Shown here piece by piece: positions 11,023 through 21,506 of a stretch of DNA of 25,942 nt. The notes below the pieces were generated by a model. That model saw only the letters and a program-made list of their open reading frames with translations. It was not told the origin of the DNA and did not search any database. The position numbers were made by a program, and so were the translations under genes. The stretch's first letter is position 1. Every line of letters starts with the position of its first letter. Location of the stretch: IMG/VR virus record IMGVR_UViG_3300010354_000559, positions 1-25,942 of that record. One strand, 5' to 3'. Source of the DNA: a virus.

Positions 11023-11051
11023 ATTATATCAGAAAGGTGCCTTAGGCGCAA
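11023..11051 (-). promoter_or_regulatory. Sigma70-type promoter of the replisome operon
   Basis: Minus strand TTGCGC (11051-11046), 17 bases, TATAAT (11028-11023). The -10 is perfect and the -35 matches at its first three positions. It overlaps the last codons of cobS and would start RNA near 11016, 25 bases before the DUF3310-like gene. Confidence 0.65.
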
Positions 11052-12129
11052 CTTCTTGAGAAGGCATCTGGAAATCGACATCAATTTTGTCATAGAGTTC
11101 CAAGAACGACTGTTTGGTCTCATCATCAAATCGTGCAGTGCAAACATCAATTGCTTTTGCTTTGTTGCCGAAAATGCTGTAAGCACGAATAATGTGAACC
11201 AGGCGGCGAGTGCTGATGATTTCCTCAATACCACCATCATAGAAAGTTTTACGGATCACATCTGCCCAGTCCACCAGGCGCTTACAGAAGTCGCGGTCTT
11301 CCACACTCAAGTCCAAAGCGATACCTTCCAGGATCTTCTGCTCTGTTGCGGGAGCAGGATAGGACTGCTCAAAGGTCACAGGGAAACGCTCAAGGAATGC
11401 TTCGTTGAGAACATTGGTGCCGATGAAGCGGCCATCATCAGAACCCTTACCTTTGGTGTTGGCAGTGGCGATAACGTTGAATCCAATAGCAGGTTTCACC
11501 CACTTACCAATCTTCTTAAGAAAAACGCCCTTTCCTTCTAGAATGGACTGAAGGCAGAGGATTTTGTTAGAAGCGAGGTCGATCTCGTCAAGGAGAAGAA
11601 TAGCACCGCGCTCCAGGGCCTCAATCACAGGACCGTTGTGCCAAGCAGTATTTCCATCAACAAGACGGAAACCGCCGATAAGATCATCTTCATCCGTTTC
11701 AATCGTAATATTTACACGAATCAATTCGCGTTTAAGTTGAGCACACGCTTGCTCAACCGAGAACGTTTTACCGTTGCCCGAAAGACCCGTAATGAACGTT
11801 GGATAGAATAGACGGGACTCAATAATTTTTTTAACATCAGCAAAGTTACCAAACTTGACGAAGGTATCATCTTTTTCTGGGATAAGGTTCTGTTCTACAG
11901 GAGGAACTACTGCAGGAGCTTGATATGCTTGTTCCATCTTTCCAACTATAGTAGGAGTAACTTCCAAATTCCACTTGCCACGACCAGTTTTGAATTGATC
12001 GAGACGCTTTGTTACGGTTTGGTAGTTTGCATCATTCATACTACACCATGCACGAATATCTCCACTGGTAATATTATTACCATAAAGATTTTGAAGAGAA
12101 GTACGAATGTAGTCGGTGGAAAGTGCCAT
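11029..12129 (-). CDS. cobS: CobS/MoxR-type AAA+ ATPase
   Basis: AAA+ ATPase of the MoxR/CobS group, usually annotated in cyanophages as CobS, the ATPase of aerobic cobaltochelatase. It has 366 residues. An N-terminal domain (1-60) is followed by a proline-rich linker. Walker A GLSGNGKT is at 115-122, the MoxR/CobS segment DLIGGFRLVDGNTAWHNGP at about 149-167, Walker B LLLDEID at 178-184, sensor-1 ATANT at 221-225 and sensor-2 STRRL at 306-310. The motor looks intact. The CobT-like VWA gene lies upstream, so the two probably form one AAA+-VWA machine. The large chelatase subunit CobN is absent here, so the substrate is open. The start has no Shine-Dalgarno and a short leader after TATAAT at 12153. 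Confidence 0.92.
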   Translation of the reverse strand: MALSTDYIRTSLQNLYGNNITSGDIRAWCSMNDANYQTVTKRLDQFKTGRGKWNLEVTPTIVGKMEQAYQAPAVVPPVEQNLIPEKDDTFVKFGNFADVKKIIESRLFYPTFITGLSGNGKTFSVEQACAQLKRELIRVNITIETDEDDLIGGFRLVDGNTAWHNGPVIEALERGAILLLDEIDLASNKILCLQSILEGKGVFLKKIGKWVKPAIGFNVIATANTKGKGSDDGRFIGTNVLNEAFLERFPVTFEQSYPAPATEQKILEGIALDLSVEDRDFCKRLVDWADVIRKTFYDGGIEEIISTRRLVHIIRAYSIFGNKAKAIDVCTARFDDETKQSFLELYDKIDVDFQMPSQEVAPKAPF

Positions 12130-12152
12130 GTTTGTTTCGTTTCAACAAGGCT

Positions 12153-12158
12153 ATTATA
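12153..12158 (-). promoter_or_regulatory. -10-like TATAAT upstream of cobS
   Basis: TATAAT follows the terminator at 12162-12184 by three bases and lies 24 bases before the cobS ATG. No convincing -35 is seen at 15-18 bases (TTTTAA at best). It could be a weak or activated promoter, or simply AT-rich spacer. Confidence 0.35.
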
Positions 12159-12161
12159 CAG

Positions 12162-12184
12162 AAAAAGGAGGTCTTAAAACCTCC
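12162..12184 (-). terminator. Intrinsic terminator between the 47-aa gene and cobS
   Basis: GGAGGT (12184-12179) pairs with ACCTCC (12172-12167) around a six-base loop, followed by five U (12166-12162). It lies just after the 47-aa gene and separates the CobT-like unit from cobS. The stem is short, so termination may be partial. Confidence 0.7.
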
Positions 12185-12191
12185 CTAGTGG

Positions 12192-12335
12192 TCAGTTAGA
12201 AAACCGTCCATACTTAAATTTCATTGCTTGAAGAAACCACGCATCAGTCAAAGACTTTGGTCCATAAAGTAAAATTTGAATTTGTTTATCCTTTAGTGAT
12301 GGATCTGATAAAGCCAATTTTTTCCAATCTTTCAT
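12192..12335 (-). CDS. 47-aa small protein, unknown function
   Basis: ATG at 12335 overlaps the stop codon of the CobT-like gene by one base (TGATG) and gives 47 codons ending in TGA at 12194-12192. The protein begins MKDWKKLALSDPSLKDKQ, has one W in each half and no cysteines, and ends KFKYGRFSN. It looks like a small, helical, basic polypeptide; I recognise no family. The tight overlap with the gene before it and the terminator eight bases after its stop indicate a real, translationally coupled gene between cobT-like and cobS. It could be an adaptor for that module, which is inference from position only. Confidence 0.7.
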   Translation of the reverse strand: MKDWKKLALSDPSLKDKQIQILLYGPKSLTDAWFLQAMKFKYGRFSN

Positions 12336-14503
12336 CACACTACCAAAGAGATAAATTCACCCAATACTTTTTTATTTAGTTTCTTGGTCTTCAGAGACTT
12401 GACAAACGCAGATTTGATTTGAGACTTAGTGGCATCTTCAGCAACTTCAAACTCCGTATCTTGAGAAAGTGCAGTTGCAGATAATCCGAAGTATGCATCA
12501 TAACCAGAGTTAGTAATGGTAAAACTTTTCAGTTTCTTCCAATCGTTTTGAATTGCAATATAATTTTTGTCGCATTGTGGATGATACAAATGAATGAAAC
12601 GACCTACATTACGGCCTTCAAGGACACGAATTCCAATAAAATTAATTGACGGAAAATTCTCTTTCAAGTTCTTGACAAGAGTGTCAGTAAACTCATGATA
12701 CCCATATCCAAAGTTATAAGTAGTTCCGAGTTTGCGATCACGAAGAAAAGTTGTTGAAGGATTAACACCGCGACAACCAATATAAGGTTCAGATTCCCAA
12801 CCGCGCTTTACTTCAACATGAAAAGGAAGACTATTTGATTCACCATCAGTTAGAACAACACAGTGAACCTTCTGAAGTTTATTCTCTTTCTGGAACTTGG
12901 GAAGAATCTGATGAAGAGAAATCAATGCCTCATTCAAAGGAGTTCCAGAAAGAGAAAGACGACTTGGATATGTAAATGAAGTGTGATAAATGTCAGAGAA
13001 ACAAGAAGCAAGACGCCAGATATTGAGCATTTGATGCTCGAATTCTTTACCCGAAACTTTACTAGTGAGAATATTCATCATAGAGAATGTTTCATCAATT
13101 GCAAACACTCCTTCTTTTTTTTCATAATGAGGAGTGCGATCAACAGCAAGATGCTTACCAGTTTCATAATCATACTCTCCACGACGCCATTCATTTGTAA
13201 AAGCATACACTTCAAACGGAATCGCAACTTTCTTACAGAACCACACCAAATTAAACAATTGCTTACAGGTATCTGTAAGAACATGACTCATTGATCCAGA
13301 CCAATCTAGAACAAACACAAGGCCGTGATTTTTACCATCGGCAAGAGTGGTGACTTTTTTGAATAGGTCTTCATTATATTTGTAAGTATGAAGTTTGGAG
13401 CAGTCCAGAACACCAGTGCGAGCAGTGGTAGCACGGGCATAGGAGTCTGCCGCTTTCTTACACTCAAACTCCTTCACCAGATAGTTGACTTCCTTCTGTG
13501 CAGAGTTTTTGAAATTGAAGAATTCTACATCTGTTTTTTCAAAAAGATTTATCGGAGCAAATCCTTTTTCTTCAGCCATCTCATTATGAGATTTCTGTTG
13601 TTGGTTAAAACACGAATCAATATCAAAATGAATATCTTTATTCTTTGCAATAATTGTCTCAAGATTTACTTTGGTAACTTCAACATAATTATTTTCATAA
13701 CCATCCATGTTTACAAGATCACGAATCTTATCTTGAAGTGCATCTGCCGTTTTTACTTCTGGTTCTTCAGCAGATTGTCCACCAACAGTTGATGGTTGAT
13801 CATTTTTAGCAGTTCCGCCAGATGATTCTTTTTCTTGAGATTCTTCAGAATTATTTTCATCTTCTGGTTGATCGGAGAAGTCAGAAGCGGGTTGGTTAGA
13901 ACCTTCAGATTGAGACTCCAGATTATCCATGGGAGTTTTAGTTTCTTCCTGCTGCTTTTGCTTACAGAACTTATAGAGTTCTTCTGCGGCAATCAGAACA
14001 TCAGAAAAAGTCTCACACTCACCGATCATACGAACGATGGGCATCTCATCAAAATCATCAAAAGGAATTTCTACAAAATTTCCAATCTTGTAATACAGAT
14101 TGACCTTATCGGCAAGATTGTAAGTTGTAATATCATCATCACCCAGTTGGAAAAAATCTTCATCGGACAATTCCTTATAACCGTTATAGAAGGTCTTGGC
14201 AAGACCAGCATAACGACGCTTCATCAATTTCTCAATACGAGCATCCTCAACCACATTCACGAACTGTGGGGGAATCTTGTACTCTTTCAACCAATTCTCA
14301 TCAGGAGTATAAAGAGCGTGGCCCACCTCATGACCCACCAGAAGGTCATACACGGTGCTGTTTGCTCGCTCCCACATAGGCAGAGTTAGCACACGAGTGT
14401 GGACATTAAAGCAGGCAGTCTCTACCTTCTTGTGTTCTACTACAAGGTCTTCTGTAGCAAGAAGTTTAGCAAGTTGGGACTTGATTTCGTGATTGACTGC
14501 CAT
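12335..14503 (-). CDS. cobT: CobT-like VWA protein with HEVGH metallopeptidase-type motif
   Basis: Predicted partner of the CobS-type ATPase. From ATG 14503 it has 722 residues. The N-terminal domain holds H58-E-V-G-H62 and, 24 residues on, E86 in VVEDARIEKLMKRRYAGLAK, a HExxH...E pattern as in zinc peptidases. An acidic, low-complexity linker (about 190-250) follows. The C-terminal VWA domain has a complete MIDAS: D400-x-S402-x-S404, T521 and D553 (LTDGES). The segment TARTGVLDCSKLHTYKYN before the VWA domain and ARIEKLMKRRYAG in the N-domain match my memory of bacterial CobT. An in-frame ATG at 14635 would run through a terminator and another gene and is rejected. The start has no Shine-Dalgarno. 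Confidence 0.85.
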   Translation of the reverse strand: MAVNHEIKSQLAKLLATEDLVVEHKKVETACFNVHTRVLTLPMWERANSTVYDLLVGHEVGHALYTPDENWLKEYKIPPQFVNVVEDARIEKLMKRRYAGLAKTFYNGYKELSDEDFFQLGDDDITTYNLADKVNLYYKIGNFVEIPFDDFDEMPIVRMIGECETFSDVLIAAEELYKFCKQKQQEETKTPMDNLESQSEGSNQPASDFSDQPEDENNSEESQEKESSGGTAKNDQPSTVGGQSAEEPEVKTADALQDKIRDLVNMDGYENNYVEVTKVNLETIIAKNKDIHFDIDSCFNQQQKSHNEMAEEKGFAPINLFEKTDVEFFNFKNSAQKEVNYLVKEFECKKAADSYARATTARTGVLDCSKLHTYKYNEDLFKKVTTLADGKNHGLVFVLDWSGSMSHVLTDTCKQLFNLVWFCKKVAIPFEVYAFTNEWRRGEYDYETGKHLAVDRTPHYEKKEGVFAIDETFSMMNILTSKVSGKEFEHQMLNIWRLASCFSDIYHTSFTYPSRLSLSGTPLNEALISLHQILPKFQKENKLQKVHCVVLTDGESNSLPFHVEVKRGWESEPYIGCRGVNPSTTFLRDRKLGTTYNFGYGYHEFTDTLVKNLKENFPSINFIGIRVLEGRNVGRFIHLYHPQCDKNYIAIQNDWKKLKSFTITNSGYDAYFGLSATALSQDTEFEVAEDATKSQIKSAFVKSLKTKKLNKKVLGEFISLVV

Positions 14504-14530: not shown

Positions 14531-14557
14531 AAAAGAAAGGTCGCCCTTTGGACGACC
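14531..14557 (-). terminator. Intrinsic terminator after the twin-CX3C gene
   Basis: GGTCGTCC (14557-14550) pairs with GGCGACC (14545-14539 side) around an AAAG loop, with one mismatch or wobble, followed by UUUCUUUU. It lies 22 bases after the stop of the 55-aa gene and inside the 5' extension of the longer, rejected CobT-like reading frame. Confidence 0.78.
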
Positions 14558-14579: not shown

Positions 14580-14747
14580 CTATGCCGCAAGGATCCTTCT
14601 ACATAATTTCCTACACGTCTGCGTATCCTCATCACATTCAGTCAAACACTCAAAGTATTCATTCATCAATTCATCTTCACCATCTTTATCACGATTTTTC
14701 ATATTATTCCAATAAGCAAGTTGATTAAAAGAAATAAGATTGTGCAT
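14580..14747 (-). CDS. 55-aa twin-CX3C protein
   Basis: ATG at 14747 preceded by a near-perfect ribosome site (GGAGGT, five bases before the ATG), 55 codons, stop TAG at 14582-14580. The first half is MHNLISFNQLAYWNNMKNR. The second half holds two CX3C motifs six residues apart, ECLTECDEDTQTCRKLCRR (C34, C38, C45, C49). This suggests a small helical hairpin held by two disulfides or one metal ion, reminiscent of, but shorter-spaced than, the twin-CX3C small-Tim fold. A terminator follows 22 bases later, so it is a separate short transcript just before the CobT-like gene. Function unknown; a metal or redox role beside a chelatase-like module is inference. Confidence 0.8.
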   Translation of the reverse strand: MHNLISFNQLAYWNNMKNRDKDGEDELMNEYFECLTECDEDTQTCRKLCRRILAA

Positions 14748-21498: not shown

Positions 21499-21506
21499 TA
21501 TTTATC
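21499..21506 (-). promoter_or_regulatory. Late-promoter-like GATAAATA
   Basis: GATAAATA resembles the T4 late -10 (TATAAATA) and lies between the gp23 terminator and the tube-fold gene. The predicted start is only about six bases before the ATG, an unusually short leader, so it may be chance. Confidence 0.35.

Follow-up and report, generated by a model that had tools for sequence, protein, structure and literature searches.

An invariant zinc-peptidase motif in the CobT-like protein of T4-like cyanophages points to a probable ATP-driven protease machine rather than a cobaltochelatase

In cyanophages, cobS belongs to the core genes and is generally classed among the auxiliary metabolic genes for vitamin B12 (PMC3037559, PMC10665884). 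What the product of this gene does with its CobT-like partner is the subject of two conflicting statements from 2021. According to one, the peptidase label of cyanophage cobT is an error, and viral CobST commandeers the CobN of the host (PMC8651126). The other proposes that, in group 2.2 jumbo phages, a MoxR-vWA pair whose VWA protein has an N-terminal metallopeptidase serves virion assembly; it assigns cyanophages, and phage OC with them, to group 2.1 (Iyer et al. 2021, PMC7824862). Here we ask which description fits the pair on one virus record of 25,942 bases (the window), which represents its genome only as a 26-kb fragment and carries genes typical of a T4-like cyanophage (polymerase, UvsX, gp46/47, clamp and major capsid). 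The evidence favours the peptidase annotation over the CobT reading of PMC8651126, and we consider it fairly likely that these two proteins form an ATP-driven machine for protein remodelling with a zinc metallopeptidase as its head, rather than a cobaltochelatase.

The CobT-like protein matches PHROG_459, a family named 'peptidase' (E=2e-260). The features from which an initial annotation had argued for a metallopeptidase, namely H58-E-V-G-H62, E86 and a complete MIDAS (D400/S402/S404, T521, D553), are all found at these residues of the window translation (Table 1). The protein thus carries HExxH with a downstream glutamate, the combination by which gluzincins and the N-terminal metallopeptidase of MoxR-vWA pairs are recognised.

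Table 1. Positions in the window of the CobT-like and AAA+ genes, their motifs and nearby signals
Feature	Position	Strand	Basis or remark
CobS/MoxR-type AAA+ ATPase, 366 aa, partner of the CobT-like protein	11029..12129	-	AAA_5 E=3e-17; PHROG_249 E=3e-136
Walker B ILLLDEID, aa 177-184, AAA+ protein	11578..11601	-	
Walker A GLSGNGKT, aa 115-122, AAA+ protein	11764..11787	-	
Terminator-like hairpin between CobT-like and AAA+ genes	12165..12186	-	Consensus match only
CobT-like protein, 722 aa, from ATG	12335..14503	-	Zincin-like N-domain, acidic linker, VWA domain
MIDAS D553	12845-12847	-	
MIDAS T521	12941-12943	-	
VWA-domain MIDAS DWSGS, aa 400-404 (D400/S402/S404)	13292..13306	-	
Low-complexity acidic linker, aa about 190-330, approximate limits	13514..13936	-	Sequence; gap-rich in alignment
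N-domain, aa 1-195, predicted gluzincin-like fold	13919..14503	-	AlphaFold2 and fold comparisons
NVVEDARIE, aa 83-91, contains E86	14231-14257	-	
E86, predicted third zinc ligand	14246..14248	-	Invariant; also kept in bacterial CobT
HEVGH, aa 58-62	14318..14332	-	Predicted: H58/H62 zinc ligands, E59 catalytic base
Terminator-like hairpin upstream of CobT-like ATG	14539..14557	-	Consensus match only

Conservation among phage homologues, one of the checks proposed with that annotation, bears the site out: every one of the 72 cyanophage-type clusters (<80% identity) has H58, E59, H62, N83, E86, D87 and R89, and the MIDAS residues are equally invariant. These clusters span 24-74% identity to the window protein, contain full N-domains only, and combine loci from pattern scans placed outside the motif, and hence blind to it, with seven annotated phage relatives. 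One further locus set was excluded from the count because its search patterns contained the motif. The eleven motif-less proteins in the motif-blind scans all start mid-protein, at a contig or open-frame edge. As a separate observation on naming, an S-CREM1 homologue with HEVGH (L088:3001-5142) is labelled 'RNA binding protein', another inconsistent label in this family.

The AlphaFold2 model of the cyanophage N-domain is confident (pLDDT 92.4, pTM 0.87) and comprises a helix, short strands, the HExxH helix (49-65) and the E86 helix (79-97). Comparison with gluzincin folds, a second proposed check, suggests that the modelled domain is gluzincin-like: its nearest solved folds are mostly zincins (ArdC, Z 7.0; ZMPSTE24, 6.2; abylysin, 6.2; also selecase, BlaR1, IrrE/PprI, Wss1 and M61), each match being non-significant on its own (best Foldseek match in the PDB E 0.046, best Z 7.0). 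Among viral models, the fold matches CobT-annotated proteins and HHTV-2. PF13203 (DUF2201_N putative metallopeptidase) gave no match for the window protein and is not among the 25 families listed for A5. Minigluzincins, IrrE/PprI, ArdC, Wss1/SprT and M48 peptidases have the core helix-sheet-helix-helix that is predicted for the phage N-domain and, in most, HExxH with a downstream Glu; to our knowledge none has a VWA domain or a dedicated MoxR-type partner.

HExxH folds can serve non-peptidase functions, and one such non-peptidase, 8s5f, is itself matched by the N-domain (Z 3.4). The pair could accordingly be a non-proteolytic assembly chaperone, whose HExxH+E metal would serve metallocentre assembly or structure while the AAA+ and VWA parts remodel a target in the way of NorQ-NorD or RavA-ViaA. 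Assembly chaperones are known among MoxR-vWA pairs (PMC7159879), and in the PDB the window AAA+ protein has matches to NorQ and CobS. Nonetheless E59, the general base, is conserved without exception, like the ligands, whereas a structural metal site needs no such base, and we regard a purely chaperone-like role as unlikely.

We also compared the phage N-domain with that of bacterial CobT, which the initial annotation described as lacking HExxH while keeping the block that follows. The alignment agrees: GLGDSMALR stands where the phage has HEVGHALY, VEQARVE keeps E86, and HExxH occurs in 0 of the 110 bacterial CobT N-domains checked. The bacterial CobT N-domain model (pLDDT 96.1) has the same order of secondary-structure elements as the phage domain; its fold list is led, weakly, by minigluzincins (Z 5.0-5.3) with TetR folds mixed in, and Foldseek alone returned mainly unrelated rows. 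Solved CobT N-domains are available as PDB entries 21vu and 9uka.

The proposed homology between the cyanophage and CobT N-domains rests on intermediates, the pJN-type N-domains, as read from profile comparisons. The cyanophage domain aligns with these in hhalign (probability 94%, E 1.4e-7), and pJN2-26 in turn matches PF06213 (E=2.6e-23) and CobT_C (E=5e-100). Directly, the cyanophage N-domain profile aligns with bacterial CobT over residues 85-102 only (E 0.19), and with a CobT profile built from Rhizobiales alone the phage proteins had no significant match. In a tree of 36 rows, unrooted, with motif columns removed and with long branches, true CobT and three CobT-like relatives form one supported group (100/100), and placing the motif-less proteins takes five changes, of which well-supported branches force at least four. 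Because repeated loss is likelier than several independent gains of the same site, we take the ancestor to have probably had the zinc site and true CobT to have lost it. This gives CobT a testable origin, in which its N-domain would be a dead peptidase; our literature search, which was not exhaustive, found no paper that sees a degenerate zincin in the CobT N-domain.

The same HExxH is found in distant viral CobT-like proteins: those of Ochrobactrum phage OC, Stenotrophomonas DLP_6, Klebsiella pJN2-26, Gordonia GodonK, Chelms, Katyusha and GMA3, Rhodococcus Reynauld, Vibrio Saratov-12, Rhizobium N1_15 and X66, Roseobacter CRP-810, T5S1, SSU5 and halovirus HHTV-2. Most of these relatives have E at the position of E86; Saratov-12 and Reynauld have V or D there. 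In HHTV-2 one gene encodes the zincin-like N-domain and another the VWA domain (L420:416-1483 and 1703-2989), which leaves the N-domain on its own. The pair persists in Pseudomonas phage phiK7B1 and Stenotrophomonas phage ANB28, with SEISK and REVST in place of HExxH (L090:2358-4439 and L424:1846-3831, respectively). Judged by their motifs, these two are natural dead-site versions for comparison, and since they lost the zinc site yet kept the pair, the AAA+/VWA part would have value without it.

The motif is not peculiar to cyanophages: most of the viral CobT-like proteins examined have it, and so do some from bacteria. Four proteobacterial genome proteins of CobT/VWA type (L384, L385, L386 and L388) carry HExxH and match PF06213, two with scores that exceed the cut-off; the short flanks of their contigs show no recognisable AAA+ gene. 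Bacterial proteins of 750-800 aa that match the phage profile and are without HExxH (L403-L412), probably CbbO/NorD-like, were left out of the family set. Single-protein scans of viral contigs with the OC and DLP_6 proteins, and of plasmids with the OC protein, gave no match.

The CobT-like gene comes with a constant partner. In 216 of 216 loci with a recognised AAA+ gene, some of them overlapping on one contig, this gene lies downstream of the CobT-like gene on the same strand, and among the collected loci with at least 2.5 kb of flank none is without it. Record counts by organism name are identical for the two genes (365/61/24), and the pair occurs in nearly all T4-like cyanobacterial viruses. 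In the window, too, the AAA+ gene adjoins a MIDAS-bearing VWA gene, as in the MoxR-vWA-metallopeptidase pair, and the AAA+ protein also has the sensor ATANT and LNEAFLERF. Its closest sequence match in the PDB is Midasin (Rea1; E 4e-44 summed over repeats), in which an AAA+ ring works with a MIDAS domain. Midasin differs from the phage pair in being one giant polypeptide with six AAA+ domains, and we know of no zinc peptidase domain in it.

In the machine that we favour, the CobS-like protein would assemble into an AAA+ ring. The substrate, a protein or a complex, would be gripped by the VWA MIDAS in the manner of Midasin and presented to the gluzincin-like N-domain, which would cleave the polypeptide through H58, H62, E86 and E59. 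Zinc would be bound at this site, proteolysis would be coupled to the ring, and the whole may act in the replication/recombination phase. In architecture and motif the window pair is like the group 2.2 pair of PMC7824862, an AAA+ gene with a VWA protein bearing an N-terminal metallopeptidase domain; the portions of that paper considered here name group 2.2, not cyanophages, and draw no link to CobT.

The competing proposal of PMC8651126 is that viral CobST replaces the host chelatase subunits, works with host CobN and raises cobalamin synthesis. Aerobic cobaltochelatase CobS/CobT indeed combines, as the phage pair does, an AAA+ protein with a VWA protein that has an N-domain, an acidic linker and a MIDAS, and the homology of N-domain and architecture through pJN2-26 fits this proposal as well. 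The CobN-family model PF02514 matches in the Synechococcus elongatus control genome, though this family also contains ChlH. In contrast to the aerobic cobaltochelatase, however, PF02514 has no match in the 11 complete genomes of pair-bearing phages that were checked, all from the wider family; the controls were positive. This extends to complete genomes the initial claim that CobN is missing, the window itself being a 26-kb fragment.

Similarity to the chelatase subunits is also far below family cut-offs. The AAA+ protein scores 65 bits against the CobS equivalog TIGR01650 (cut-off 558.55), the CobT-like protein 8.7 bits against PF06213 (cut-off 26.1), and PF11775 (CobT_C) has no match to the latter at E<=10. 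Finally, cobalt chelation leaves unexplained an invariant zinc site that is missing from all 110 true CobT N-domains. Taken together, we find a chelatase role very improbable. An ATPase-steered metallopeptidase is instead supported by the invariant site, the predicted fold, the AAA+ partner, the lack of CobN in those 11 genomes and the weak CobS/CobT similarity; the idea itself was published before, for another phage group. The suspicion that the pair is mislabelled as B12 synthesis was right for the AAA+ partner, which is the main bearer of the B12/porphyrin label, and wrong for the CobT-like gene, which is mostly labelled 'peptidase' already. Should the pair be a protease machine, ocean viromes are misread wherever these genes are taken as B12 metabolism.

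The neighbours of the pair are mostly replication, recombination and repair genes in S-PM2, OC, DLP_6, pJN2-26, SSU5, phiK7B1, ANB28 and T5S1. These surroundings bear on a further possibility, that the pair is a virion-assembly protease-chaperone processing structural proteins, as PMC7824862 proposes in its part on group 2.2 jumbo phages, where an archaeal virus whose tail assembly requires a MoxR-vWA pair is cited as precedent. Replication and repair neighbours in most lineages examined speak against it. So does the distribution of late-promoter-like ATAAATA in the window, which lies 18-40 nt upstream, on the coding strand, of three structural-region genes (gp22, 21487 and 25458; sites at 21499, 24242 and 25483) and before neither the CobT-like nor the AAA+ gene; the total count of ATAAATA is not above chance, so this timing argument is weak. 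We think a virion-assembly role has little chance of being correct.

More speculatively, the viral 'CobST' of cyanophages, haloviruses, actinophages and phage-plasmids could be one ancient ATP-driven zinc-protease family, Midasin-like in action and tied to replication or repair, from which bacterial cobaltochelatase CobT would descend by loss of the zinc site. We offer this as a tentative scenario, somewhat doubtful as a whole. Anti-phage defence models gave no match, and the transcriptome literature consulted does not mention the CobT-like and AAA+ genes by name. The hairpin upstream of the CobT-like ATG is followed by a TATAAT ending 21 nt before this ATG, a consensus match only. A small ORF of about 55 aa (MHNLISFNQLAYWNNMKNRDKDGEDELMNEYFECL...) lies on the minus strand at about 14580-14747 of the window, between gp46 and the CobT-like gene.
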